A stretch of DNA of 64,000 nucleotides. It comes from Gordonia polyisoprenivorans (GTDB lineage: Bacteria; Actinomycetota; Actinomycetes; Mycobacteriales; Mycobacteriaceae). Made by a program: the position numbers and the translations under genes. Where the stretch lies: assembly GCF_017654315.1 (NCBI RefSeq), contig NZ_CP072203.1:3906001-3970000 (forward strand), in the 5' to 3' direction. Under the pieces are notes generated by a model. The model saw only the letters and a list, made by a program, of their open reading frames with translations, was not told the origin of the DNA and did no database searches. This document shows positions 40,985 through 55,846 of this stretch, in pieces; the stretch's first letter is position 1; every line of letters begins with the position of its first letter.

Positions 40985-43147
40985 TTACTTGATACCGGCG
41001 GCATCCATTCCCCGCAACTCCTTCTTCAGGTCGGCGATCTCGTCGCGCAGCCGCCCGGCGAGTTCGAACTGCAAGTCGCGGGCGGCGGCCATCATCTGGT
41101 CGGTCAGTTGCGAAACCAGATCGGCCAGTTCGGCTCTCGGCATCGCCGACACATCACGCTTCTCGATCACACCGGCGCTGGCGGCCTTGCCCCCGGACAT
41201 CTCGCCCTGCGCGCGGCGGCCCCGGCTCGCGCTGCGGCCCGATCCGACCACCGCCGCCGAGGTGTCCTCGGCTTCCCGGTACACCTGATCGAGGATGTCG
41301 GCGATCTTCTTGCGCAGCGGCTGCGGATCGATCCCACGCTCTTTGTTGTAGGCGACCTGTTTTGCCCGTCGCCGTTCGGTCTCGTCGATGGCGTTGCGCA
41401 TCGAGTCGGTGATCTTGTCGGCATACATGTGGACCTGACCCGACACGTTGCGCGCGGCACGGCCGATGGTCTGGATCAACGAGGTCGTCGAGCGCAGGAA
41501 TCCTTCTTTGTCCGCGTCGAGGATCGCGACCAGCGACACCTCGGGCAGGTCGAGTCCCTCACGCAGGAGGTTGATGCCCACCAGGACGTCGAAGTCGCCC
41601 GATCGCAGTTGCCGGAGTAGCTCGACGCGCCGCAAGGTGTCGACTTCGGAGTGCAGATACCGCACTCGGATACCGAGTTCGAGCAGATAGTCGGTGAGGT
41701 CCTCGGACATCTTCTTGGTCAGGGTCGTCACCAGTACGCGCTCGTCGCGGTCGGTGCGTTCGCGGATCTCGTGCACCAGATCGTCGATCTGGCCCTTGGT
41801 CGGTTTCACCACGATCTCCGGGTCCACCAGTCCGGTCGGCCGGATCACCTGCTCGACGAACTCACCATTGGACTGGCCGAGCTCGTAGGGGCCCGGGGTT
41901 GCCGACAGGTAGACGGTCTGCCCGATGCGGTCGACGAACTCGTCCCAGGTCAGGGGCCGGTTGTCGACCGCCGACGGCAGCCGGAATCCGTACTCGACGA
42001 GGTTGCGTTTGCGGGACATGTCACCCTCGTACATGCCGCCGATCTGCGGGACCGTGACGTGGGACTCGTCGATCACCAGGAGGAAATCCTCGGGGAAATA
42101 GTCGATGAGTGTCGCTGGCGCGGTACCCGCACCGCGGCCGTCGATGTGGCGCGAGTAGTTCTCGATGCCCGAGCAGAACCCCACCTGACGCATCATCTCC
42201 AGGTCGTAGGTGGTGCGCATGCGCAGCCGCTGGGCCTCGAGGAGTTTGCCCTTGCGTTCGAGCTCCGAGAGTCGCTCCTCGAGCTCGTCCTCGATGCTCT
42301 TCATCGCCCTCTCCATGCGGTCCGGTCCCGCGACGTAGTGGGTCGCCGGGAAGATGCGCAGTGAATCCACCTGTCTCACAACATCTCCGGTGAGCGGGTG
42401 CAGGTAGTACAGCGACTCGACCTCGTCGCCGAAGAACTCGATCCGAACGGCGAGCTCCTCGTAGGAGGGGATGATCTCGACGGTGTCGCCGCGAACGCGG
42501 AAGGTGCCGCGGGTGAAGGCGGTGTCGTTGCGTGCGTACTGCACGTCGACGAGCAGCCGCAATAATGCATCCCGATCGATCTCGTCGCCGACCGCGATCT
42601 CCACCGACCGATCCAGGTAGGACTGGGGGGTACCGAGACCGTAGATACATGAGACCGACGCGACCACCACCACGTCCCGACGTGACAGCAGGTTCGAGGT
42701 GGCCGAGTGCCGCAGACGCTCGACGTCGTCGTTGATCGACGAGTCCTTCTCGATGTAGGTGTCAGTCTGCGCGATGTAGGCCTCGGGTTGGTAGTAGTCG
42801 TAGTACGACACGAAGTACTCGACGGCGTTGTTCGGCAGCATCTCGCGTAGTTCGTTGGCCAGCTGCGCGGCGAGGGTCTTGTTGGGCGCCATCACCAGGG
42901 TCGGACGCTGGACGCGTTCGATGAGCCAGGCCGTCGTCGCCGACTTGCCGGTACCGGTGGCGCCGAGCAGCACGATGTCCTTCTCGCCCGCGGCGATCCG
43001 TTTCTCCAGGTCGTCGATGGCTGCCGGCTGGTCACCGGCGGGCTCGTACTCGCTGACCACCTCGAAGTGGCCCTCGGTACGTTCGATCTCGCCGATAGGG
43101 CGGTACTCGGAGTGCGCGATCACCGGTCGCTCTGCTGCAAAGGCCAT
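40985..43147 (-). CDS. uvrB: Excinuclease ABC subunit B
   Basis: 720 residues, standard. Damage-verifying helicase-like subunit that loads UvrC. Walker [16 protein letters not shown] near residue 65, the beta-hairpin region [21 protein letters not shown], helicase motif [11 protein letters not shown] and a C-terminal UVR domain ([19 protein letters not shown]). The middle has a low-complexity stretch after [12 protein letters not shown]. Divergent from the DUF402 gene, as in M. tuberculosis. Confidence 0.98.
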
Positions 43148-43223
43148 GACGCCAGGGTAAACGCGCCCTACGACAAGTGTGTTCCAGGCGATCGAGGGGC
43201 CACGGCGCCATTAGGGTCGATGT

Positions 43224-43790
43224 ATGTCCGACTCGGCCGGCCCCCCATCACGCGAGGTCTCGTCTCACGAGGACCTCCATCCGCCCAAACGCGAGACCTT
43301 CGACGTCCCGGCGATGACCAACACCGACAACAAGGGATTCGTGCGGCCGGTCGAACGGTACGAGGTGACCGATTTCGGGTTGTACATGTCACGGACCGCC
43401 GACCATCCGCGGTTCGATCACCTCGAGTCGTGGCTGCTCCCGGCGCTCGGGCTCCGTGCGAACATCTTTCATTTCGTGGACGGGCACCGCACGGGTCAGC
43501 GACTCTACCTGGACGTGGGTGCATTCGACGGCCCCGACGGCGAGGGCCGCTGGCATGCCGTGGACTGGTATCTCGATCTCGTCGATGTACCCGGAACCCC
43601 CTTGGAGCTGATCGACGTCGACGAGTTGTTCGCTGCCCATCGCGCCGGGTTGCTGCCCACCGACAGCTGCGTCGCGGCCGTGAGGATCGCCACGCGAGCC
43701 CTCGCCGGGGTCGCCGAACATGGCCATGACGTCGACGCATGGCTTGACGCTGAGGTCGGCGGGCACGTGTTCTGGCTCGATCGCCCCTGA
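43224..43790 (+). CDS. DUF402 family protein
   Basis: 188 residues. FHFVDGHRTGQRLYLDVG, then WHAVDWYLDLVDVPG and LELIDVDELFAAHRAGLL form the DUF402 pattern; characterised relatives include nucleoside phosphatases and the FomD-type hydrolase. The conserved aspartates in YLDVGAFDGPDG and DWYLDLVD would bind metal. Orthologous in position to Rv1632c. The true substrate is unknown. Confidence 0.85.
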   Translation: MSDSAGPPSREVSSHEDLHPPKRETFDVPAMTNTDNKGFVRPVERYEVTDFGLYMSRTADHPRFDHLESWLLPALGLRANIFHFVDGHRTGQRLYLDVGAFDGPDGEGRWHAVDWYLDLVDVPGTPLELIDVDELFAAHRAGLLPTDSCVAAVRIATRALAGVAEHGHDVDAWLDAEVGGHVFWLDRP

Positions 43791-43797
43791 GTCCGCC

Positions 43798-44505
43798 TCA
43801 GACCGCTCGATCGCCGTGCAGAAGCAACTGCGCCACCTCGTCGAGTGCCCAGCCGGTCTCGCTCGGTCGGAGCACCCACACCATGTCGAAACGGTCGTCG
43901 GGCCAGTCGCGCGGGCTCGGGGTGACCTTTCCGAACTCCTGGACCAGGCCGCGGATTCGGTGGTGCTCCCAGCTGATCAGCGTCACCCCGGTCTGCCCAC
44001 GCGCGAAGGCCGCCGCACCACTGAGGTCGTCCTGGGTGAATCGGGTGACCGGCTCGACGCCGATCCGCGCGGCGAGTGGGGTGATCGTCTGCAGTGGCCG
44101 ACGACTCGCGCCGTCTCCGCCGACCGACGCGACGACCCGATCCGGGGTGAGTAGACCGTCGCGCGGCGCCTGGCCGTCGGCACCGAACAGGGCGACGAGT
44201 CCACCGGCACGCGTCCACCCGGCGACGGTCAGCGACGCGGAGTCCCTGGCCCCGGACTCGGTGACGCCGTGCGTGCCCGTCGCCGGTTTCTCCGCGTGCC
44301 GAACGATCATTACCAGCGGCGGTCCGGATGAGGTCGACGGCGTCGATCTCGCCGTCGCGGCGGCGGTCATCTCGCTGCCCGGGGTGTCGGGTGTCGTGGC
44401 GCAACCCCCGATCGCCGCGGCGCCTGCGCCCAGGCCGACCGCGGCGAGCAGCCCACGTCGCGAAACCGGCATACCCGGCGACTGAGATCGGTTGTCGCGC
44501 AACAT
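43798..44505 (-). CDS. Tat-type lipoprotein with histidine-phosphatase-like fold
   Basis: 235 residues. N-terminus has a twin-arginine-like SRRGLLAAVGLGAG signal ending in lipobox IGGC (Cys35), so it is probably exported folded and lipidated on the outer face of the membrane. Then VMIVRHAEKP gives the phosphohistidine motif RHAE (69-72), and ISWEHHRIRG supplies the second histidine. Known members are phosphatases or mutases; with a missing or altered acid residue the role here is uncertain. Convergent with the DUF402 gene, 7 bases apart. Confidence 0.75.
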   Translation of the reverse strand: MLRDNRSQSPGMPVSRRGLLAAVGLGAGAAAIGGCATTPDTPGSEMTAAATARSTPSTSSGPPLVMIVRHAEKPATGTHGVTESGARDSASLTVAGWTRAGGLVALFGADGQAPRDGLLTPDRVVASVGGDGASRRPLQTITPLAARIGVEPVTRFTQDDLSGAAAFARGQTGVTLISWEHHRIRGLVQEFGKVTPSPRDWPDDRFDMVWVLRPSETGWALDEVAQLLLHGDRAV

Positions 44506-44540
44506 TGTCGCGACACTACGCCGCCGGCCGAGGATTCCGT

Positions 44541-45446
44541 TCAGCCGGCTGTTCGGATACCCACCGTCGCAGGCCGACCGGGGTCGGCAGACCCGAACCG
44601 GCCGTCGCCGATCGGTGCGAATCCACCCGGCGGGAGCGCATCGGCGAGTGCGTCCGACGCGTCGGCGTCGCGCGCGGTGATCACGAACCCCTGATCGGCG
44701 CTACCGCTCGCCGCAGCATCGATCGCCGTGGCGTTTGCGCCCGCCAACGCCCACAACCGTTGGGTGATGCGCGTGGGAAGTGTCGAGGAGTTCGGTTCGG
44801 CAGCAACGAGTTCCGGATCAACGGTCGCCGGAGTGCGGGTCCGCACATTGGTCTCGAACGGCACGAGGCGGCGCGCCCACAGCTCTGCGGAGGCGGCCGC
44901 GAGCGCTTCCGGGCTGCTCGAGTTGTCGAGCCAGGCGTCGGCGACCGCGCGACGCTGGTCGTCGTCGGCTTGGGCGGCGATGCGTGCACGAGCGTCGGAT
45001 TCCGGCATTCCGCGCAGCTCGACGAGCCGGCGCACACGTTCCTCGGCGTCGGCGTGCACGATGATCACCAGATGGAAGAACGGGGCCATGTTGCCCTCGA
45101 CCAGGAGTGGGATGTCCTGGATGACGATTGCGTCGTCGGGTGCGGCCTCCAGCATTTCCTGGGTGCGCGCCCCGACGAGCGGGTGGGTGATCGAGTTCAG
45201 TGTGGAGCGGCTCTCGTCGTCGACGAATGCCTTCGCCGCGAGTGCGGCGCGATCCAGCGACCCGTCACCGGCCAGGATGTCCTCGCCGAACGCCTCGACG
45301 AGTCGCGCGAGACCCGGGGTGCCCGGTTCGACGACTTCGCGGGCGATCTTGTCGGCGTCGATGTGAAAACCGCCGCGCTCGATGAACGTCTTGGCCACTG
45401 TCGATTTTCCGGCTCCGATGCCGCCGGTCAGTCCCACTCGGATCAC
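44541..45446 (-). CDS. coaE: Dephospho-CoA kinase with C-terminal extension
   Basis: 301 residues from GTG 45446 (VIRVGLTGGIGAGKS). Last step of CoA synthesis. P-loop GGIGAGKST, the dephospho-CoA-binding DADKIAREVV and the LID-type LVELRGMPESDARARI are present in residues 1-195. The rest (about 100 residues) is Ala/Asp-rich. In mycobacteria this position holds a UPF0157/GrpB domain, and here only a shortened, diverged remnant seems left. Upstream in-frame codons exist, but they are not part of the family. Confidence 0.93.
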   Translation of the reverse strand: MIRVGLTGGIGAGKSTVAKTFIERGGFHIDADKIAREVVEPGTPGLARLVEAFGEDILAGDGSLDRAALAAKAFVDDESRSTLNSITHPLVGARTQEMLEAAPDDAIVIQDIPLLVEGNMAPFFHLVIIVHADAEERVRRLVELRGMPESDARARIAAQADDDQRRAVADAWLDNSSSPEALAAASAELWARRLVPFETNVRTRTPATVDPELVAAEPNSSTLPTRITQRLWALAGANATAIDAAASGSADQGFVITARDADASDALADALPPGGFAPIGDGRFGSADPGRPATVGIRTAG

Positions 45447-45499
45447 GGTCCCAGTGTGGCAAACCCACACACGGGACCGTGATCCGGACCATCTCACCG

Positions 45500-46738
45500 T
45501 CAGCCGGTGACGCCGGTCAGCTCGATCGTCTGCGCCGGAAGGGTCGCCTTGTTCGCCACCTTCGCTGTGGACAGGTCAACGGCATACAGGGTTTTCGTCG
45601 CGGGGTCGCTGACGTAGGCCCGGTCACCCTGGATGAACAGATTCGGCATCGGCGACTGCCATTCGTCGGGTTCGGACCAGGCCGCGATGACCGGGATGCT
45701 CGCCGTCTCGGTGGCCGACTCGGGATCGTAGACGTGCAGTGCACCGTCCGTACCGAGGATTACCGCCTGCCCGTTGGGGCCGCGTTCGATCGACCGGAAG
45801 CTATAGCTGGCCGGGAAGTCCACGAGGCGCAGGGTTCCGGTCCGAGTATCGGTGAGGGTGAAACGATTCGGGCGTTCGAGCTCGGCGTCCTTGTCGGTCT
45901 TGTAGTCGCCGAGCACGATCGGGGACTCGGCCGTGCCGGCCTGGTTGCCGATGCGGCCGTACGGATCAGGACTCGACACCTTTTGAATCTCGTTGCCGCG
46001 CACGATGAGTATGCCGTCCTGGCAGCCGAAGGTGAGTACTCCCCCGGCGGCCTCGGCCTCACCGTGAATGCCCGGGCATTGATCGTTGCGGGCGATCTCG
46101 TTGCGGGCCTTGTCCAGGATCACGATGCCCGAGCGGGTGTCCTCGTTGCCGACGGTGACCACCAGGGTGCCGTCGCCGCGCGACACAGCGACCCCGTGAT
46201 GTGGCTCAGGTGTGCGGTAGGTCGTCGACGCGGCATTCCCTTGTGCCAGTTCGACGGGTTCGACGATGTTCACTTCGCCGGTACCGTCGGAAAAGAGGGT
46301 GAGGCGGTCCTCGAAGGACACGACGTGACCGGGTTCGGCACCGCCGAATCGCATGTCGGTGAGTACCGGCGATGTCGTGTAGTGATGGCCGTGGTCGCCG
46401 TGCTTGCGGGTCCAGGTGCCCATGTCGAGGACGCGGAACCCGTCGGACTCGCTGATGAAGACATTGCGGCCGTTATCGGCGCTGTTGAGTCGGGTGAAAC
46501 CCTCGACAGGGAAATCCCCGACCTGCTGCAGGGTCTCGGCGTCGTAGACCAGGACACCGCCGTCATAGCTCAACGCGAGCCTCGGTGTGGCACTTCCTTG
46601 TTCGACCGGCGATCCCGACGCCGCACTACTCGTCGCCGAGGTGTCACCGCCGCCATCAGAGCCACACGCGACGAGCGTTGCGGTCACCGCCGTGAGGGCG
46701 GCCACGGAGAATGTCAGTTTTGTCCGTTGTATGAGCAC
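45500..46738 (-). CDS. AztD-like zinc metallochaperone lipoprotein
   Basis: 412 residues. Signal with lipobox LVAC (Cys25) and a Ser/Gly-rich linker, then a beta-propeller. Histidine cluster HGDHGHH (113-119), a pair at 180-181 (PEPHHGVAV), His224 in CPGIHGEAE and Cys220/Cys238 match AztD-type chaperones, which deliver zinc to ABC-transporter binding proteins. No zinc transporter gene is nearby, so the partner is elsewhere. Starts at GTG 46738. A Fur/Zur-type palindrome upstream (46760-46774) fits repression when zinc is sufficient. Confidence 0.75.
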   Translation of the reverse strand: MLIQRTKLTFSVAALTAVTATLVACGSDGGGDTSATSSAASGSPVEQGSATPRLALSYDGGVLVYDAETLQQVGDFPVEGFTRLNSADNGRNVFISESDGFRVLDMGTWTRKHGDHGHHYTTSPVLTDMRFGGAEPGHVVSFEDRLTLFSDGTGEVNIVEPVELAQGNAASTTYRTPEPHHGVAVSRGDGTLVVTVGNEDTRSGIVILDKARNEIARNDQCPGIHGEAEAAGGVLTFGCQDGILIVRGNEIQKVSSPDPYGRIGNQAGTAESPIVLGDYKTDKDAELERPNRFTLTDTRTGTLRLVDFPASYSFRSIERGPNGQAVILGTDGALHVYDPESATETASIPVIAAWSEPDEWQSPMPNLFIQGDRAYVSDPATKTLYAVDLSTAKVANKATLPAQTIELTGVTG

Positions 46739-46759
46739 GCCGCACAGCTAAGCCGTTGA

Positions 46760-46774
46760 TGACAATTATTGTCA
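46760..46774. promoter_or_regulatory. Fur/Zur-family operator-like palindrome
   Basis: TGACAAT-T-ATTGTCA, a perfect 7-1-7 inverted repeat typical of Fur-superfamily sites. On the minus strand its TTGACA could serve as the -35 of the AztD-like gene (TTAGCT 18 bases later as -10), so a bound repressor would block transcription. It lies 22 bases from the AztD-like start and 124 from the divergent membrane gene. Zur is preferred over Fur because of the zinc-chaperone target. Confidence 0.65.
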
Positions 46775-46897
46775 AAATGCCATACACGAATACGTTGCCG
46801 AGCGGGTTGATCCATTCCCCGAACCTAGAGACATATTTAATATATTGCCCCAACGGGTTCGAGGCCCCGGGCCATCGTCCGGGGAGAGGAGGCTGTG

Positions 46898-47527
46898 ATG
46901 CTGTGTTGCCTGGTGATGGTGATCGTGCTGGGAGCCGGCTCACGTTTCATGCCGTGGCGCACCGTCCGAGACGACGGCGGCTTCGCGCCGACTGCGGTGC
47001 GCAGCACCCCGGATGACACCGATCTCGCGGCACTTGTCGACGCCCTCTCCGAGCGGCCGCCCGGGGCCGGCCCCGCACTGCATGGTCGCCCCACACTCCA
47101 CACTGCGGTCCCGTCGGTGATGCAAGCGATCGCGACGGGCGTGGCCGCTTCGCTGCCCGTGACCGTGGCGCTCATGGCCGGCGGACTCGCCCGCACCAGC
47201 GCACCCGGCTGGGTGTGGCTGATCCACTGTTCGGGTGTGGCAATGCTCACCGTCGCCGTCATGGGTGCAGCGGCGTTCGTCGGTCTCCGATGGCCGCGGC
47301 GCATTCGTGGGGTCGGGGCGCTCGGTGTGATGGCGATCGGGATCGCGGGCGCACTGTTGACCGTCGTCGAAATCGACACCCGTCTGGTCGACCTGTATCA
47401 ACTCCGCTCGACAACCGCGCACCTCGTCGTCACTTCAATCCTGTTGGGAGCCATCATCTCCGGATTCATCGCAGTAATCGCCGCTACGTCGGACACGCCC
47501 GCACGCACGCCGGTCGGGTCGGCGTGA
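46898..47527 (+). CDS. Membrane protein coupled to the LDI-family gene
   Basis: 209 residues with four or five hydrophobic segments: VMVIVLGAGSRF, SLPVTVALMAGGLA, WLIHCSGVAMLTVAVMGAAAF, LGVMAIGIAGALLTVV and VVTSILLGAIISGFIAVIAA. GAGAGGAGG lies 5 bases before the ATG. No family recognised. Its stop overlaps the next gene's GTG start by 4 bases, so the two products are made together; it may anchor the LDI-family enzyme or move its substrate (inference). Confidence 0.75.
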   Translation: MLCCLVMVIVLGAGSRFMPWRTVRDDGGFAPTAVRSTPDDTDLAALVDALSERPPGAGPALHGRPTLHTAVPSVMQAIATGVAASLPVTVALMAGGLARTSAPGWVWLIHCSGVAMLTVAVMGAAAFVGLRWPRRIRGVGALGVMAIGIAGALLTVVEIDTRLVDLYQLRSTTAHLVVTSILLGAIISGFIAVIAATSDTPARTPVGSA

Positions 47528-48927
47528 GCACGGGCATCGCGCCGGTCGCGGTCACCGAGTCGTCCGGCGACGATCTCGCGTCGCTGCGGTACCTGCTCGA
47601 TCTCGCGCTCCAGCCGGTAGACGATTTCACCGGCTTCACCCGGCTCGAGCAGATCGGCGGCAGCGCGCTGCGCTACCAACTCAGTTATGCCGGGTATGCG
47701 TTGTCGATGGCGCAGTACACGCGCACACCGGCATTCGGCGGCTATCTCGCGGAGGCGCAGGCCAATCTCATTCGTAAGATGTGCGACAAACGCGTATGGG
47801 GATATTGGGCCACCGAGCAACTGGCGGGATACCTTCGGTGGAATCCCGATCCCATGACCCTCGGCAACGTGATGTACACGGGCTTCTTCGCCGCGATGCT
47901 CGCGCTCTACGAAAGCCTCAACGGCACCGGAGAATTCGACGATCCGGGAAGCCTGGAACTGCGATGGAGCACCGAGAAGTCGTTCCACTATGGTTACACC
48001 CCGATCGCCGAGGCCATCGAGCGCAACATGCGGCAGAGTCGTCAGACGTTGTATCCGTGTGAGCCGCACCTGATCTACCCGATGTGCAACGCCGTCGCAA
48101 TGGTGGGACTGTGCGCCTACGACCGGCTCCACCACCGCGATCTCGCCGGCGATCTGCCCGAAAAGATGAGGCAATCGTTGTTCGACAACAAGTTCCGACG
48201 TCGCGACAGACGCTTTGTCTTCGGACGCGGGCCACTCGGCCTGGTCTTCCCACCGATGATCGCCAACGACGCCGTGATGACCTACTGGCTCAACGCCTTG
48301 ACGCCGGATCTCGCGCACGACACCTGGGACGTACTGCGTCGGACACGCATTCGCAACCGCTCGACGCGCGTCGGACTGCGGACAACGCCCGTCGACCACC
48401 TCGACGTCGGGTCCTATCGACCCGGTGATGGATGGGCGTGGGCAAATCTGCTCATCGCCGCGCGCGAGACGGGCGCCACCGAGATCGCCGACACGATCAC
48501 CGAGAAGATCGCCGCCGACATCGGGTTCGATCACTCTCCGCACGGCGCGCACAAACTCCACGGCGTCTCGACATGGGTCAACTGCGCCCATGTGCTGGGA
48601 CGTATGACCAGACCCGACGGCATGCGGGACCTCGCCTCCGGCGAGATCCCCGACACCTGGCGCCACGGCCCTCACCTCGATTCGGCCGGCTATCCGGACG
48701 TTCTGGTCGCCAAGGCGCTCACCGACGGCACGACACTCCAACTCGTGCTGCGGCCCGGAGCCGGTCCGACCCGAACTGCGCTGCGACTCTCGAGACTCCG
48801 ACCGAGCGCGACGTACGCGTTACGCGGAGCGATGGCCGACGAGGTCACCGCAGACCACGACGGTCAGGCGATCATCGAGGTCGACCTGTCGGCGCGGCTG
48901 GAGGTGCAGGTCCGCCCGCACGTCTGA
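47524..48927 (+). CDS. Linalool dehydratase/isomerase-family protein
   Basis: 467 residues from GTG 47524. The segment KMCDKRVWGYW, then NVMYTGFFAAMLALYESLNG and CEPHLIYPMCNAVAMVGLCAYDRLHH aligns by eye with the Castellaniella enzyme ([52 protein letters not shown]). The two active-site cysteines, 9 residues apart, are kept (Cys179, Cys188). The known enzyme is periplasmic and interconverts myrcene, geraniol and linalool; this one has no signal peptide and carries an extra C-terminal beta-rich region after residue 410. Substrate unknown. Strong terminator downstream. Confidence 0.8.
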   Translation: MSTGIAPVAVTESSGDDLASLRYLLDLALQPVDDFTGFTRLEQIGGSALRYQLSYAGYALSMAQYTRTPAFGGYLAEAQANLIRKMCDKRVWGYWATEQLAGYLRWNPDPMTLGNVMYTGFFAAMLALYESLNGTGEFDDPGSLELRWSTEKSFHYGYTPIAEAIERNMRQSRQTLYPCEPHLIYPMCNAVAMVGLCAYDRLHHRDLAGDLPEKMRQSLFDNKFRRRDRRFVFGRGPLGLVFPPMIANDAVMTYWLNALTPDLAHDTWDVLRRTRIRNRSTRVGLRTTPVDHLDVGSYRPGDGWAWANLLIAARETGATEIADTITEKIAADIGFDHSPHGAHKLHGVSTWVNCAHVLGRMTRPDGMRDLASGEIPDTWRHGPHLDSAGYPDVLVAKALTDGTTLQLVLRPGAGPTRTALRLSRLRPSATYALRGAMADEVTADHDGQAIIEVDLSARLEVQVRPHV

Positions 48928-48952
48928 ACCCTGACACGATCAGGTGGAGATC

Positions 48953-48998
48953 AAACGAGTGCGACCCCTTCCGTTGCCGGAAGGGGCCGCACTCGTTT
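48953..48998. terminator. Bidirectional terminator between the LDI-family gene and rpsA
   Basis: Inverted repeat AAACGAGTGCG-CCCCTTCCG with its complement, one mismatch in about 21 pairs, loop of a few bases, and short T-runs on both sides. It lies in the 86-base gap between convergent genes. Confidence 0.85.
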
Positions 48999-49013
48999 GT
49001 TCAGATCAGGCGA

Positions 49014-50489
49014 TCAGGCGTTGCCCGACAGCTTCTCGCGAAGCGCCGCGAGCTGCTCGTCGCTGGCCAGCGATCCGCCGCCCGACGAAGAGGTCGACGA
49101 GGACGAGGTCGACGAGCTGCTACGGCTCTCCGACGCCGACGAGTAGTCCGTCGGGGCCTTCTCGGCCTCGGCCGCGGCAGCGGCGAACTTCTCGATCTGC
49201 GCGGTGTGCATCTTGTGACGACGCTCCGCCTCGGCGTAGCGCGCCTCCCAGGCCTCACGCTGCTTCTCGAAGCCCTCGAGCCATTCGTTGGTCTCGGGAT
49301 CGAAGCCCTCGGGGAAGATGTAGTTGCCCTGCTCGTCGTAGCTGTCGGCCATGCCGTACTTCGACGGGTCGAACTCCTCGGTGTAGTCCTCGTTGGCCTG
49401 CTTGAGGCTCAGCGAGATCCGGCGACGCTCCAGGTCGATGTCGATGACCTTGACCATCGCGTCGTCGCCGACGGCGACAACCTGGTCCGGGACCTCGACG
49501 TGACGCTCGGCGAGCTCGGAGATGTGCACCAGGCCCTCGATGCCCTCGTCGACACGGACGAACGCACCGAACGGCACCAGCTTGGTGACCTTGCCCGGGA
49601 CGATCTGGCCGATCGCGTGGGTGCGGGCGAACTGGCGCCACGGGTCTTCCTGAGTGGCCTTGAGCGACAGCGACACACGCTCGCGGTCCAGATCGACGTC
49701 GAGAACCTCGACGGTGACCTCGTCACCCACGGTGACGACCTCGGACGGATGATCGATGTGCTTCCAGGACAGCTCGGAGACGTGAACCAGACCGTCGACG
49801 CCGCCGAGATCGACGAACGCACCGAAGTTGACGATCGAGGACACGACGCCCTTGCGGACCTGGCCCTTCTGCAGCTGGTGCAGGAATTCGCTGCGCACCT
49901 CGGACTGGGTCTGCTCCAGCCAGGCGCGACGCGAGAGCACCACGTTGTTGCGGTTCTTGTCGAGCTCGATGATCTTGGCCTCGATCTCCTTGCCGATGTA
50001 CGGCTGCAGATCGCGGACGCGGCGCATCTCCACCAGCGATGCCGGGAGGAAGCCACGCAGACCGATGTCGAGGATCAGGCCGCCCTTGACGACCTCGATG
50101 ACGGTGCCCTTGACGGCCTCGTCCTTCTCCTTGAGCTCCTCGATCGTGCCCCACGCGCGCTCGTACTGCGCACGCTTCTTGGACAGGATCAGCCGGCCTT
50201 CTTTGTCCTCCTTGGTGAGGACGAGTGCTTCAACCTCGTCACCGACGTTGACGACCTCGTTGGGGTCCACGTCGTGCTTGATCGAGAGTTCGCGTGAGGG
50301 GATCACGCCTTCGGTCTTGTAACCGATGTCGAGCAGAACCTCGTCGCGGTCGACCTTGACGATGGTGCCTTCGACGATGTCGCCATCGTTGAAGTACTTG
50401 ATCGTGGAGTCGATGGCGGCGAGAAAGTCCTCAGCCGAGCCGATGTCGTTGACGGCTACTTGCGGCGAGGTGATGGTGGAGGACGGCAT
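49014..50489 (-). CDS. rpsA: 30S ribosomal protein S1
   Basis: 491 residues from ATG 50489. Four S1 RNA-binding domains (about 35-105, 122-190, 207-275, 292-362); VVSSIVNFGAFVDLGGVDGLVHVSELSW is the third. Actinobacterial S1 has four rather than six domains. The last 130 residues are charged, then a Ser-rich run near the end precedes DEQLAALREKL. Binds mRNA and tmRNA. In M. tuberculosis it lies directly beside polA and coaE; here both gaps have been filled with accessory genes. Confidence 0.97.
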   Translation of the reverse strand: MPSSTITSPQVAVNDIGSAEDFLAAIDSTIKYFNDGDIVEGTIVKVDRDEVLLDIGYKTEGVIPSRELSIKHDVDPNEVVNVGDEVEALVLTKEDKEGRLILSKKRAQYERAWGTIEELKEKDEAVKGTVIEVVKGGLILDIGLRGFLPASLVEMRRVRDLQPYIGKEIEAKIIELDKNRNNVVLSRRAWLEQTQSEVRSEFLHQLQKGQVRKGVVSSIVNFGAFVDLGGVDGLVHVSELSWKHIDHPSEVVTVGDEVTVEVLDVDLDRERVSLSLKATQEDPWRQFARTHAIGQIVPGKVTKLVPFGAFVRVDEGIEGLVHISELAERHVEVPDQVVAVGDDAMVKVIDIDLERRRISLSLKQANEDYTEEFDPSKYGMADSYDEQGNYIFPEGFDPETNEWLEGFEKQREAWEARYAEAERRHKMHTAQIEKFAAAAAEAEKAPTDYSSASESRSSSSTSSSSTSSSGGGSLASDEQLAALREKLSGNA

Positions 50490-50696
50490 ATTGGTGAGTT
50501 GCTCCGGACAGATATGTAGTAGGTACAGTTTGGTCGTGCTGGGAGTGCGCCGGCCCATACTCAGGGCATGCGCAACCGCGCGAGATGGTGCACACGCGCG
50601 GAAACAACCCTACTCCAGCGGCGTTGCGCTGGGCAAATGCCGTACCGCCGCATTCCGGGGCCGTCGCATTCGCACCGACACGGGGAGACACGCACG

Positions 50697-51260
50697 ATGG
50701 CACACTCAGTCGAGTTCCTCGTCGACGACGCCTCTGACCAGCAGATTCGCACACAGTGGGCAGCGCTCGCCGACGCCGGGCTCCCCTCTCAGGCCGGCAT
50801 CGCCTCGAGCACCAATCGCCCGCATATCACCGCACTCGCCGCCGCCCACATCGCACCCGGTATCGATACCGCACTGGCGACGGTCGGCATGCGCCTACCG
50901 TTCACGGTCGCACTCGGTGGCGTGGTCGTCTTCGGCTACGGACGCAAGCGGGTCGTCGCACGTCTGGTGGTGCCCACGAGCGAGTTGTTGTCCACCCATG
51001 CTGCGGCCGTCCGCCTGGGTGCTCCGTTCGCGACGGACCACAAAGGGCGGGCAGGGGTATTCGACCATTGTGTTCCAGGCTCATGGACCCCTCACGTGAC
51101 GTTGGCGCGCCGCGTTCCACTCGAACAATTGCCTGCCCTTTTCCACGCCCTCGAGCCTTACGACCCCGTCATTGGTGAAGCACCGATGACAGTCGTCGGG
51201 CTGCGCCGCTGGGACTCCGACACACGCACTGCCCGTGTCATCGGCGGAAGAGCCTGCTGA
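50697..51260 (+). CDS. 2'-5' RNA ligase-like (2H phosphoesterase) protein
   Basis: 187 residues from ATG 50697. Two HxT-type motifs, PHIT (His43, Thr45) and PHVT (His133, Thr135), about 90 residues apart as in the 2H phosphoesterase fold. Such proteins hydrolyse cyclic phosphodiesters of RNA or small nucleotides; the bacterial role is usually unknown. Divergent from rpsA. First gene of the 13-kb stretch that separates rpsA from polA here. Confidence 0.85.
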   Translation: MAHSVEFLVDDASDQQIRTQWAALADAGLPSQAGIASSTNRPHITALAAAHIAPGIDTALATVGMRLPFTVALGGVVVFGYGRKRVVARLVVPTSELLSTHAAAVRLGAPFATDHKGRAGVFDHCVPGSWTPHVTLARRVPLEQLPALFHALEPYDPVIGEAPMTVVGLRRWDSDTRTARVIGGRAC

Positions 51261-51371
51261 CGCGACCTCGATAGGGCGAGCGGTTCACCTCAGGGGATGT
51301 CCACACCCGGGCACGTGAGCGCCAGAGACTTTTGTACCCGAATGGTCGTGGATAGGGTCCGGAGAATGACA

Positions 51372-51400
51372 TTGACAGCGTCGAATTCTCGATTTATCGC
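51372..51400 (+). promoter_or_regulatory. Possible promoter of the secreted lipase gene
   Basis: TTGACA at 51372-51377, then 17 bases, then TATCGC at 51395-51400, 42 bases before the lipase start. The -35 is perfect and the -10 weak. The surrounding 180 bases between the two genes otherwise show nothing. Confidence 0.4.
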
Positions 51401-51441
51401 AATCGTTGGCGCCGGTCTTTGAATACCTTTAGAATTCGGCG

Positions 51442-52710
51442 GTGGCCCGAATTCCCAGAGCTTTTTCCGTGACAGTGGTCGGTGCTGCACTTGCAGCGCT
51501 CCTGTCGATTCTCCTAGCGATTCCCCTGGCGGCACCGGCAGCGGCGGCACCGCTGGTACCGCCCTCCCAGGATCCGTTTTACAGTACGACACACTCGCTG
51601 ACCCACGTCGAGCCGGGAACCGCACTGAAAACCAGGGTTGTCGGTTTGGCCTACGGCGACAAGCGCTTTCCCGCGACGGCCACCCAGATACTGTTCCGCA
51701 CCACCGATCAGTTCGGCGCCCCGACCGCTGCGGTGACCTCGATCATCGAGCCCCTCACACCGGGGCCGCGTAAGATCATTTCCTACCATTCGCCCTACGA
51801 TGCACTCGGTTCGCAATGCGATCCGTCCTACGCATTGCGTGGGGGGAACACCGGCCGCCGACCGGAATTCGACGACCTCACCATCGGTACCCTCCTCGCG
51901 CAGGGGTACACCGTTGTGGCCCCCGATTACGAAGGTCTGAAGATGCGGTGGACCATGGGTCGCGAATCGGCCCAGACCGCGCTCGACAGCATCCGCGCCG
52001 CCGAGCGACACCTGCGCGCTCCGGCATCGACGCCGGTTGGTCTGTTCGGCTACTCCGGCGGTTCGGTCCCCACCGGATTCGGTGCCGATCTCGCGCCGAC
52101 CTACGCGCCCGAGCTCAACATCATCGCCGTCGCAGCGGGTGGGGTGATCGTTGATCCGGCGCACAACCTGCCGTATGTCAATGGCAGCACGCAGTGGGCC
52201 GGTGTCATCCCGGCACTGATGAACGTCTACAACGACGTGTTCGACCTCGGTATCGAGCGGTACCTCTCCCCTAAGGGAACCACCATCCTCGCCCAGACCC
52301 AGGGCAAATGCCTCATCGATTTCGCGACGAAATACCCCGGATTGACCGACTCTCAGCTACTCCAGCCGCAGTATCCGAGCCTGCTCGATGTCCCAGGCAT
52401 CCCCGCGGCGTTCAACCAGAACATCATGGGACTCAAAGGCAAGCCCCGTGGTCCGGTCTTCCTGGGGGTCGGCAACATCGACGGGATCGGCGACGGCATC
52501 ATGATCGACGCGGACGTCGCAGGTCTGGCAACGCGCTACTGCCGCGAAGGGGTGGCAACCCAATACAAGACCTATCCGAAGCTCAGCCATTTCGAGGCAT
52601 TCATTCCGTGGGCCGCCGACGCCGAGCGGTTCCTGGCCGACCGGTTCGCCGGCCGACCGGCGACGTACTGCAGTGGCATCCCGACCGGAAACACCCTCGC
52701 ACCGATCTGA
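51442..52710 (+). CDS. Secreted lipase (LIP family)
   Basis: 422 residues. Signal peptide 1-36 (VVGAALAALLSILLAIPLA, cleavage after the Ala run). Alpha/beta-hydrolase with GYSGGS nucleophile motif (Ser205), as in actinobacterial and fungal secretory lipases of the LIP family. A likely acid/His pair lies in the GVGNIDGIG and KLSHFEAFIPW regions. Expected to hydrolyse fatty acid esters outside the cell. Cysteines at about 126 and 306 could pair. GTG start. Confidence 0.9.
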   Translation: MARIPRAFSVTVVGAALAALLSILLAIPLAAPAAAAPLVPPSQDPFYSTTHSLTHVEPGTALKTRVVGLAYGDKRFPATATQILFRTTDQFGAPTAAVTSIIEPLTPGPRKIISYHSPYDALGSQCDPSYALRGGNTGRRPEFDDLTIGTLLAQGYTVVAPDYEGLKMRWTMGRESAQTALDSIRAAERHLRAPASTPVGLFGYSGGSVPTGFGADLAPTYAPELNIIAVAAGGVIVDPAHNLPYVNGSTQWAGVIPALMNVYNDVFDLGIERYLSPKGTTILAQTQGKCLIDFATKYPGLTDSQLLQPQYPSLLDVPGIPAAFNQNIMGLKGKPRGPVFLGVGNIDGIGDGIMIDADVAGLATRYCREGVATQYKTYPKLSHFEAFIPWAADAERFLADRFAGRPATYCSGIPTGNTLAPI

Positions 52711-52758
52711 CAGGCGCACCGCTGACCGGCAAGGGTCCACGTCCCTAGACTCGCGGGC

Positions 52759-53604
52759 GTGGACTCTTCCGACGAATCAGCGATCCCCGCTCATCAACCG
52801 CGCGTCCTCGATGACGTCGACTCGGCGACCAGCGCCCGCGCCAACCGCGCGTGGTGGGACGCCGAAACCACCGACTACCACGCCGAACACGGCGATTTCC
52901 TGGGCGCCGGCACACCGGGAGGCGATTTCGTGTGGTGCCCGGAGAATCTTCGGGAGTCCGACGCACACCTGCTCGGCGAGGTACGGGGGAAGACCGTGCT
53001 CGAGATCGGTTGTGGATCGGCGCCGTGTTCCAGGTGGCTTGCCGCGCAGGGCGCCGACGTGGTCGCGACCGATCTCTCGCGGCGCATGCTGGGGTACGGG
53101 CTGGCGGCGATGGAGCTCTTCGACGAGACCCCGGTTCCTCTCGTCCAGGCCACGGCTGAGGCACTCCCCTTCGCCGATGCCACCTTCGACATCACTTTCT
53201 CGTCGTTCGGTGCGGTGCCGTTCGTCGCCGATTCGGGGCGCGTGATGGCCGAGGCCGCACGGGTTCTCGTGCCCGGTGGCCGTTGGGTGTTCTCCATCAA
53301 TCACCCGATGCGCTGGATGTTTCCCGACGACCCCGGACCTGACGGTCTCACCGTCGCGATCCCCTACTTCAATCGCACACCGTACTCCGAGGTCGATGCC
53401 GACGGCACCATCACCTACGTCGAGCACCATCGGACCATCGGTGATCGCGTCCGTGAGATTCGTTCCGCCGGTTTGATTCTCGACGACATCGTGGAGCCCG
53501 AATGGCCCGACGACCTCGAACGCGTCTGGGGTCAGTGGAGTCCGCTTCGGGGACAATACTTTCCGGGTACCGCGATCTTCTGTTGCCGTAAGCCGGACAG
53601 CTGA
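52759..53604 (+). CDS. SAM-dependent methyltransferase (class I)
   Basis: 281 residues from GTG. VLEIGCGSAPCSRWLA is motif I, VVATDLSRRML supplies the acidic residue that binds the SAM ribose, and SFGAVPFVADSGRVMAEAARVLVPGGRWVF covers motifs II-III. No substrate can be deduced; the N-terminal NRAWWDAETTDYHAEHGDF resembles actinobacterial small-molecule methyltransferases. 22 bases from the convergent deazaflavin-type reductase. Confidence 0.88.
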   Translation: MDSSDESAIPAHQPRVLDDVDSATSARANRAWWDAETTDYHAEHGDFLGAGTPGGDFVWCPENLRESDAHLLGEVRGKTVLEIGCGSAPCSRWLAAQGADVVATDLSRRMLGYGLAAMELFDETPVPLVQATAEALPFADATFDITFSSFGAVPFVADSGRVMAEAARVLVPGGRWVFSINHPMRWMFPDDPGPDGLTVAIPYFNRTPYSEVDADGTITYVEHHRTIGDRVREIRSAGLILDDIVEPEWPDDLERVWGQWSPLRGQYFPGTAIFCCRKPDS

Positions 53605-53625
53605 CGTCGATCAGCCGCCGTCATC

Positions 53626-54081
53626 TCACGCGGGATCGAACCGGAACACCGCACACCGGCCGGCGAGCGCCTCGAACTCGTCGGGGGTGCCCTCGGTGAC
53701 CAAACCCGATCGCGTCATGAACTCGACACCGGTGGGCACGAGTTCGGGAAACCGTCGAAGCAATGGGCGGGCCTGCGCCGCATCGAGTTCCACCATGCGC
53801 ACGGTTTCCGAACGCCGACGGGTGCGCAGGGTTGCGGTGTCGGCGGCACGGGCATTGCGTTCCCAGTCCGAGCCGGGGAAACCGGACACGACGTAGCGAT
53901 GACCGTCCACGGTCATCGGGGTGATCGGCGTCGATCGGGGCTTACCGCTCGTGCGCCCCGGCACGGTGAGGATCACCGGACCCTCGTCACCGAAGATCGG
54001 TATCCCGACCCTCGTCACCGCCATCAGCACCTTGTTCATCGGTGTCAACCACCACGGTGGCCGTGGGCTCGCATTCGTCAT
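53626..54081 (-). CDS. Deazaflavin-dependent (DDN-like) nitroreductase-family protein
   Basis: 151 residues. PIFGDEGPVILTVPGRTSGKPRSTPIT, then RYVVSGFPGSDWERNARAA form the pattern of F420-binding split-barrel proteins such as Ddn of M. tuberculosis. F420 is made by mycolic actinobacteria, so cofactor use is reasonable. Substrate unknown; such proteins reduce quinones or activated alkenes. Confidence 0.85.
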   Translation of the reverse strand: MTNASPRPPWWLTPMNKVLMAVTRVGIPIFGDEGPVILTVPGRTSGKPRSTPITPMTVDGHRYVVSGFPGSDWERNARAADTATLRTRRRSETVRMVELDAAQARPLLRRFPELVPTGVEFMTRSGLVTEGTPDEFEALAGRCAVFRFDPA

Positions 54082-54108
54082 GCCCGCCGAGGATAGCCGC
54101 AGACCGAC

Positions 54109-54891
54109 TCACAGGAGTTTGGACAGGAAGCTCTTGGTCCTCTCGTGCTGCGGATTCGCGAGAACCTCACGCGGATCGCCCTTTTCGACGACGACTCCGC
54201 CGTCCATGAACACCAGCTGGTCGGCCACCTCACGCGCGAAACCCATCTCGTGGGTGACCACCACCATCGTCATCCCGGACGCCGCAAGCTCTCGCATGAC
54301 GCCGAGTACCTCGCCCACCAATTCGGGATCGAGCGCCGAGGTCGGCTCGTCGAAGAGCATCAGCTTGGGTTCCATGGCGAGAGCACGAGCAATGGCGACT
54401 CGTTGTTGCTGTCCGCCGGAGAGCTGGGCCGGATAGGTATCGGCCTTGTCCGCGAGCCCCACCCGGTCGAGCAGTTCACGGGCACGCGCGAGTGCGGCGT
54501 CCTTCTTCTGCTTCTTCACCTGTGTCGGCGCCTCGATCACGTTCTCCAACGCGGTGCGATGCGGGAACAGGTTGAAATGCTGGAACACCATGCCGATGTC
54601 GCGCCGTTGCTTGGCCGCATCCTTCGGGCTCATCTCATAGAGCTTGTCGCCGCGTTCGCGATACCCGATCAGATCACCGTCGACGTAGAGCCGCCCGGTG
54701 TTGACCACCTCGAGATGGTTCACGCACCGCAAGAACGTCGACTTCCCCGATCCCGAGGGGCCGATCAGACAGAGGACCTCACCCTTGGCGACCTCGAGGC
54801 TGATGCCCTTGAGCACCTGCAGGGTCCCGAAGCTCTTGCACACCCGATCGGCGCGAACCATCGGTGGCGCAGCGGTCTCAACGGAGCTCAT
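54109..54891 (-). CDS. Polar amino-acid ABC transporter, ATP-binding subunit
   Basis: 260 residues. Walker [12 protein letters not shown], signature [15 protein letters not shown], Walker [15 protein letters not shown] and switch His in VVTHEMGFA. Of the GlnQ/HisP group that imports Glu, Gln, His, Arg or similar. ATG 54891 is used (GTG at 54894 also in frame); both overlap the end of the permease gene. Third gene of a binding protein-permease-ATPase operon; without a working binding protein (see 55848-58081) the system may be idle. Confidence 0.95.
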
Positions 54892-55846
54892 CACTCTCCT
54901 CGTCGACGGCGAGCACCTTGTTCTGCGCGGCCGCCATCGCCTTCAATTGTCGCCCGGTCAACTGTCGCGACGCTCCTCGTGAGTAGTAGCGCTCCAGATA
55001 GAACTGGCCGACCATGAGCACGCTGGTGACCGCGAGGTACCAGGTCGAGGCCACCATGAGCAGTGGAATTGGCTGGAAGTTGACACCAGAGATATCTGCT
55101 TGCACACCGAACAGTTCGCCTGTGAACGGCACCGCAACCACGAGGCTCGTGGTCTTCAGCATGCTGATCACCTCGTTACCGGTCGGCGGAATGATCACTC
55201 GCATCGCCTGTGGCAACACCGTCCGGCGCATCGTCTGGGTCCATGACATCCCCAGCGCCACCGACGCCTCGGTCTGTCCCTCACCCACCGAGGAGATACC
55301 GGCACGCACGATCTCGGCCATGTACGCAGACTCATTGAGGGCCAGCCCGATCATCGCGAAGAGAAGGGCCGAGTAGAGATCCTGCATGTTCAGGTGTGCG
55401 AACTGCACCACAAACGGTATTCCCAGGTCGATGCGTTTGTATATGGAAGGGAACAAGCCCCAGAACACCAGCTGAACGTAGACCGGTGTCCCTCGAAAAA
55501 TCCACAGGTACACCCACGACACCGACCGCAGAACCACGTTGGGTGATAGCCGCATGATCGCAAGGAGGACGCCAAGGATGACGGCGATCACCATCGCGAG
55601 CACCGTGAGCAGCAGCGTGTAGCCCGCACCGACGAGAATCCGAGTGTCGAACAAATACTTGCCGTAGGTGGCCCATCCGTAGGCGGGATTCGTTGCCGCA
55701 CCGTAGACGAACAACACCACCAAGATCAGGACGATCGCAGCTGCCACCCACTGTCCGTAGTGGCGAAGTGGCACCGCTTGGATCGCCGTCGGTTCTCGCG
55801 GTCCGTCGTCAATTGGCGACGGACCGGAAGTCGAGGTTGCTCCCAC
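54878..55846 (-). CDS. Polar amino-acid ABC transporter, permease
   Basis: 322 residues, longer than average because of a polar N-terminal 35 and a C-terminal tail. About five to six membrane helices. The EAA loop that contacts the ATPase reads [18 protein letters not shown], followed by [16 protein letters not shown], typical of the His/Glu/Gln/Arg permease family. The GTG start lies one base after the binding-protein stop, so it is tightly coupled to that disrupted gene. Confidence 0.94.

Follow-up and report, generated by a model that had tools for sequence, protein, structure and literature searches.

In the 64,000-nucleotide stretch of the Gordonia polyisoprenivorans genome analyzed here (contig NZ_CP072203.1; hereafter, the window), two overlapping forward-strand genes encode a membrane protein (MP) and an enzyme of the linalool dehydratase/isomerase (Ldi) family, whose nearest characterized kin is the linalool isomerase (Lis) of Thauera linaloolentis. 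Judging from the sequences, we propose, with a probability of about 0.58, that this Lis-type enzyme and its separate MP, which belongs to a family starting with M-x-C-C, constitute a membrane-docked isomerase, predicted to convert allylic terpenoid alcohols between their tertiary and primary forms, as in the pair linalool and geraniol. The enzyme is akin to Lis, keeps the catalytic cysteines, has a predicted Ldi fold and falls in a clade without a fused membrane domain, and an M-x-C-C gene recurs beside its relatives. Given that this cysteine-pair start is found beside Ldi genes in many bacteria, the MP and the enzyme likely cooperate at the membrane. The separate membrane partner and the M-x-C-C module are the new elements, as no description of either was found among the open papers listed for Ldi, Lis and DUF2243.

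The gene pair

The MP gene (46898..47527, forward strand) starts with ATG at 46898, encodes 209 amino acids (aa), ends with TGA at 47525-47527, and is a long form of the M-x-C-C family. A Shine-Dalgarno-like GGAGAGGAGG, read directly from the sequence, precedes its ATG at 46883..46892 on the same strand. The Lis-type enzyme gene (47524..48927, forward strand) encodes 467 aa. Given that its GTG start is at 47524, the tetranucleotide GTGA at 47524..47527 (forward strand) is common to the MP stop and the enzyme start, and this 4-base overlap suggests translational coupling. Both open reading frames (ORFs) and the overlap were thus found where an earlier sequence-only reading of the window had placed them.

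The source genome (G000, 6.03 Mb) contains a single match to the Pfam Ldi profile. Among the best 120 of 422 protein matches to the window enzyme, the top one, at 96% identity, is from Gordonia sp. N1V, and the nearest named locus is in G. polyisoprenivorans NBRC 16320, also at 96%.

Family, fold and active site of the enzyme

The window enzyme matches Pfam family PF18566 (Ldi) over residues 50-351 with an E-value of 2.1e-81 and a score of 274 bits, where the cut-off is 26.1, which bears out the family membership proposed in the sequence-only reading. The catalytic cysteines, rightly described there as intact, are Cys179 (48058..48060) and Cys188 (48085..48087), both on the forward strand and aligned with Cys171 and Cys180 of Castellaniella defragrans Ldi. 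They lie in the motif CEPHLIYPMC, and the pair is invariant in 28 of 28 rows of one alignment and 16 of 16 rows of another.

An alignment of 16 rows, Lis and a Castellaniella-type enzyme (L132) among them, preserves Cys171, Cys180, Tyr66 and Met125 throughout. Cysteine is missing from both positions of the capping disulfide in the 15 Lis-type rows; Cys87 of the window enzyme is one residue off the second position, and no cysteine is near the first. The His129 position is aromatic in these 15 rows (Phe121 in the window enzyme, Trp in Lis). His129, Tyr66 and Met125 follow the numbering of Castellaniella Ldi. PMC6600392 gives the roles of the Ldi cysteines numbered one lower, with the capping disulfide as Cys48/Cys101.

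The predicted model of the window enzyme, when compared with known structures, presents the Ldi-type alpha/alpha-barrel fold, as expected if the family assignment is right. In the Foldseek search with this model, GH127 arabinofuranosidases, cysteine-directed according to their titles, are ranked after Ldi; GH127 structures also combine an alpha/alpha barrel with beta domains. The identity to Lis is 35%, C-terminal region included, and that to Castellaniella Ldi is 19-20% by structure alignment. The C-terminal region (residues 384-465; 48673..48918, forward strand) is composed of beta strands in the predicted model. It had been described as an addition to the family, and it does lie beyond the Ldi profile, yet it is not peculiar to the window protein, since Lis has one too.

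No signal-peptide-like start was seen in the enzyme when its N-terminus was judged by eye, with no prediction program run, in agreement with the sequence-only reading. The N-terminus is that of the Ldi domain, and the four fused membrane helices of Lis are absent. According to PMC4791888, T. linaloolentis Lis has 644 aa, four predicted N-terminal membrane helices and a cytosolic Ldi-like domain. We recognized the lis gene by all three published primer sites in locus L130, from the sample of genomes around Uliginosibacterium; its frame has 647 aa, or 644 aa when counted from the second ATG. A second genome (L131), 94% identical to L130, has two of the three sites.

The M-x-C-C module beside Ldi genes

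ORFs starting with M-x-C-C and continuing with hydrophobic residues were counted on both strands of 71 non-redundant loci (969 kb). Seven redundant loci, i.e., the same contigs reached twice, were dropped; the remaining 71 include close relatives, so that the counts are not independent events. The pattern was set after examples were known, though its occurrences were then counted without regard to where they lay. Of the 52 ORFs, 45 are no more than 900 bp from the enzyme gene, a density of 0.198 per kb near the enzyme versus 0.0094 elsewhere (21-fold). Five of the seven outlying ORFs encode the same kind of protein, 1-2.5 kb away (L027, L030, L101, L103 and L117). The module is present in 60 of the 71 loci after adding seven looser cases, four at 1-2.5 kb, three that start with MCPxC (L108, L110 and L116, from one actinobacterial lineage) and one cut by a contig end, this sorting into classes being a manual judgment.

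The module is carried by microproteins or by longer proteins, in both Actinobacteria and Proteobacteria. Clustering of the neighboring ORFs groups kin of the window MP in one family. Its genes precede the enzyme gene in Gordonia, Mycolicibacter, Williamsia and Antrihabitans, and in Smaragdicoccus they precede that of a fused enzyme; in Mycobacterium-type genomes they are downstream, convergent and mostly overlapping. In the latter (L019, L028, L029, L032 and others), about 115 bases at the 3' end of the Ldi gene are shared with the convergent M-x-C-C gene. In Nocardia and other genera, the enzyme gene is preceded by that of a microprotein of 38-56 aa with an M-x-C-C start, and the proteobacterial loci have module proteins of 37, 39 and 46 aa, and one of 125 aa, 3' of the enzyme. 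Ten relatives that were scanned, eight of them small, gave no match in Pfam or NCBIfam that passed the cut-off. The neighbor survey therefore agrees with the earlier expectation that the membrane gene is conserved with the Ldi gene: relatives of both adjoin in other genomes, so that the pairing is more than chance.

The MP occurs in 6 of 59 Gordonia genomes, every time adjoining Ldi. A profile of the long MPs found 34 places in the 401 genomes of the family sample, 20 with the N-terminal module and 14 without. Sixteen of the 20 adjoin Ldi; ten of these are rows of the profile itself and adjoin by construction, and six are independent. The other four are G479, where the contig ends inside the gene, a Skermania place 14 kb from Ldi, G669 and G719. 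Among the 14 places without the module, 13 are away from Ldi, so that the four helices by themselves represent a broader kind of protein. A full-length MP was never seen without Ldi nearby. Given that most module-bearing places adjoin Ldi and most module-less ones do not, it is the module, rather than the helices, that tracks the enzyme.

The module also reaches the Lis gene cluster. In G795, the gene of a 118-aa protein starting with MACC is 0.2 kb upstream of that of a Lis relative (70% identical). A search of six proteobacterial genomes with this 118-aa protein returned the protein itself and a single match in each of the two Thauera-type genomes, on the lis contig, with 32% identity over 115 residues; the other three genomes gave no match. 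The T. linaloolentis protein starts with MGCC, and its gene lies in the gap of 3,487 bases that separates atuC from an acyl-CoA ligase gene in this genome. PMC4847356 gives an atuH-atuC interval of 3488 bp; the MGCC gene lies between atuH and atuC.

The membrane protein

The MP begins with M-L-C-C on a short N-terminal helix (residues 1-15; 46898..46942, forward strand), which is the module that recurs beside Ldi genes. It is followed by an invariant FAP motif (residues 29-31; 46982..46990, forward strand) identified by alignment, whose loop would be cytosolic given the positive charges, and by four predicted transmembrane helices (residues 67-198; 47096..47491, forward strand). The latter come from an AlphaFold2 model of middling quality (predicted local distance difference test of 75, predicted template modeling score of 0.61). 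Residues M1, C3, C4, F29, A30, P31, W107 and D160 are invariant in 23 aligned long MPs. The MP had been said to be of no known family, and no match in Pfam or NCBIfam was obtained at E-values up to 1, DUF2243 included. A Foldseek search with the MP model returned 36 rows with a best E-value of 2.1 and no match to a DsbB/VKOR fold.

Two candidate relationships of the MP were rejected. That it is the split-off membrane domain of a fused Lis-type enzyme is unsupported, with an hhalign probability of 0.7%, and no kinship was found with the membrane gene downstream of the enzyme in Nocardia, which matches DUF5134 (two members scanned). A DUF5134 membrane gene is downstream of the enzyme in Nocardia (L017, 7389-7922) and in Mycolicibacterium xanthum (L035, 7425-8060), and represents a third kind of membrane neighbor.

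Distribution and architecture of Ldi enzymes

Ldi is patchily distributed: it is found in 9 of 59 Gordonia genomes (eight over the cut-off), in 34 of 401 genomes of the family sample, in 7 of 396 of the phylum sample, and in 6 of 395 genomes around Uliginosibacterium. We compared the architecture of Ldi enzymes across 78 loci, which hold 80 Ldi places. The four named proteobacterial loci, like many actinobacteria, have a fused N-terminal membrane domain. It is absent in Nocardia, Mycolicibacter, Williamsia, Antrihabitans, Mycobacterium-type metagenome genomes and most Gordonia; Gordonia G018 has two copies (L084, L085), of which one is unfused and the other fused.

In a tree of 72 enzymes, which left out the partial or frame-broken ones (L040, L045, L046 and L051), 33 unfused enzymes, including that of the window, form one clade with support 100/100, and 35 fused enzymes are outside it. 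The unfused enzymes outside this clade are three very divergent ones (L102, L105 and L109) and the Castellaniella type. Under a midpoint root, the tree reads as a single loss of the fused membrane domain; the root is uncertain because the outgroup branches are long and these other unfused enzymes are also outside. In the unfused clade, enzymes without a fused anchor retain separate membrane neighbors.

The three very divergent enzymes have neither a fused domain nor a module, and are beside a Fis-type regulator and dehydrogenases. An Ldi-like fragment (L051) is on a Thermoplasmatota archaeal metagenome contig. A late-starting Ldi in Gordonia G008 (L083, about 7904) has no membrane gene before it and is possibly decaying.

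Proposed mechanism

The window enzyme would stay in the cytosol and dock on the membrane through the FAP loop and helices of the MP, the positive-inside rule placing that loop on the cytosolic side. The lipophilic substrate would be drawn from the bilayer, and Cys179 and Cys188 would catalyze the reaction by acid-base chemistry, in the way that has been proposed for Ldi. The MP, through its Cys-Cys, might hold this pair reduced, so that the MP would be an anchor and perhaps a redox keeper. The Cys-Cys start, along with MCPxC in one lineage, resembles a dithiol function, and the redox role is an attractive possibility because both Ldi and Lis require a reductant, according to PMC6600392 and PMC4791888.

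A tentative extension, for which we would not give even odds, is that Lis-type enzymes are two-component in general: a dithiol micro-membrane partner would be required and would keep or set the redox state of the catalytic cysteines, perhaps via the quinone pool, and in Gordonia it would have grown into a five-helix protein which also replaces the lost anchor. If true, this would explain both the reductant need of Lis in vitro and its inactivity when made alone in E. coli, the latter also reported in PMC4791888. The conserved small partner in the Lis gene cluster is a direct and cheap hypothesis for the inactive E. coli product. More broadly, this hypothesis would link a family of unannotated microproteins to a chemistry.

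Several observations weigh against a cooperating, membrane-docked pair. The module is absent in 11 of the 71 loci (L033, L040, L043, L051, L083, L092, L102, L105, L109, L118 and L119), the late-start Gordonia Ldi (L083) among them; L040, L051 and L119 are near contig ends, and Skermania (L033) has a C-C/FAP mini-ORF 14 kb off its Ldi. Only six of the ten module places that are not profile rows adjoin Ldi, G669 and G719 being weak matches (E-value about 6e-4) away from it, and the T. linaloolentis MGCC gene ends 7.7 kb before lis, and is thus not adjacent. The window MP lacks the histidine of a D-x-H motif and an FH, both present in most of the 23 aligned relatives. Its module helix is short in the model (residues 2-15), and if the N-terminus is outside, its cysteines would be on the side of the membrane opposite a cytosolic enzyme. 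Finally, no terpene-degradation gene was found among the ten flanking proteins scanned (40988-55846).

Neighboring genes and alternative explanations

The ten flanking proteins include UvrB, CoaE, an S1-domain protein (rpsA), a secretory lipase, a methyltransferase, an F420H2-quinone-reductase-like protein and products of ABC transporter genes; two of the ten have no Pfam match. In the interval 44541-50558, the pair is flanked by coaE and a secreted-protein gene without a Pfam match on one side and by rpsA on the other, an arrangement which, among the loci searched, recurs only in G. polyisoprenivorans L013. The secreted-protein gene is, we presume, AztD-like. The genome encodes, at other places, two relatives of the pathway marker geranyl-CoA carboxylase (48% and 46%), which are indistinguishable from leucine-pathway enzymes.

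Across the 71 loci, the neighbor-gene clusters, each named from one scanned member, comprise TetR regulators (14 loci), aldehyde dehydrogenases (12), zinc alcohol dehydrogenases (10), a mixed cluster of flavin monooxygenases and short-chain dehydrogenases (10), acyl-CoA ligases (9) and MPAB/Lcp-type oxygenases of the rubber oxygenase family (9). An MPAB/Lcp-type gene directly follows a fused Ldi in eight actinobacterial loci (e.g., L094, 9260-10141). These neighbors fit an alcohol-aldehyde-acid-CoA degradation of isoprenoids. Neither alcohol, aldehyde and acyl-CoA degradation genes nor acyclic terpene utilization (atu) genes, the setting of Lis, were found among the ten proteins flanking the window pair, so the substrate assignment rests on kinship to Lis.

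One alternative keeps the same fold and docking, and we consider it unlikely while giving it the largest share among the competing explanations: the natural substrate would be another isoprenoid allylic alcohol, i.e., a hemiterpene, a sesquiterpene or an oligo-isoprene fragment, and the enzyme would not be a linalool isomerase in life. The MPAB/Lcp-type cluster beside the fused relatives, the alcohol dehydrogenases, aldehyde dehydrogenases and acyl-CoA ligases found close to other relatives, and the identity of the nearest named locus as G. polyisoprenivorans, a rubber degrader, speak for it. However, the nearest characterized kin is Lis, and MPAB-type genes are so common in Gordonia (14-17 in each of seven genomes) that they were rejected as a specific marker and cannot count alone; none is at the window pair.

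It is less probable still, and in our judgment doubtful, that the membrane gene is a passenger inherited with the operon and has no functional link to the enzyme. Many loci are close relatives, so that co-inheritance inflates the counts, and the module-less loci agree with this view. Nevertheless, the module gene lies upstream in line, downstream in line or convergent downstream depending on the clade, and it encodes a microprotein or a longer protein in two phyla, and also in the Thauera atu-lis cluster.

That the enzyme is a periplasmic dehydratase/isomerase, like Castellaniella Ldi, is very improbable: Pfam membership and the fold agree with it, but the window enzyme has no visible signal peptide, capping disulfide or His129, shares just 19-20% identity, and has the extra C-terminal region. 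That the M-x-C-C ORFs are spurious reading frames can practically be dismissed, for although many have just 36-56 codons, they present the 21-fold local density and residues conserved over divergent DNA, with third codon positions accounting for 224 of 446 differences where about one third is expected of non-coding DNA (9 usable of 12 pairs; one was left out for having no ORF and two for a wrong ORF).

Comparison with known systems

The preferred reading is a Lis-type enzyme docked on the membrane by a separate M-x-C-C protein. On the MP side, the quinone-thiol oxidoreductases DsbB and VKOR are alike by anatomy only, with a cysteine pair at a helix start and a four-helix bundle. The predicted membrane proteins of DUF2243 are weakly matched by 6 of 23 MP family members (best E-value 0.0017; one member scored 15.3 bits against a cut-off of 25), unlike the window MP, which has no match.

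On the enzyme side, Castellaniella defragrans Ldi (5HLR, 5G1U, 5I3T) shares the fold, Cys171/Cys180, Tyr66 and Met125, yet differs in being periplasmic and shorter, in having the capping disulfide and His129, and in having no membrane part. The sequence-only reading had taken this periplasmic enzyme for the only well-studied member and membrane-associated Ldi chemistry for undescribed; neither statement is supported, as Lis is a published membrane-anchored member (PMC4791888) and the window enzyme resembles it. Lis (T. linaloolentis 47Lol, EC 5.4.4.4) shares with the window enzyme the Ldi domain with a C-terminal region, the cysteine pair, the membrane association (proposed for the window enzyme), the lack of a capping disulfide, the aromatic residue in place of His129 and an M-x-C-C gene within the same cluster. 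The difference is that the Lis chain itself carries four N-terminal membrane helices, whereas the window has a separate membrane protein.
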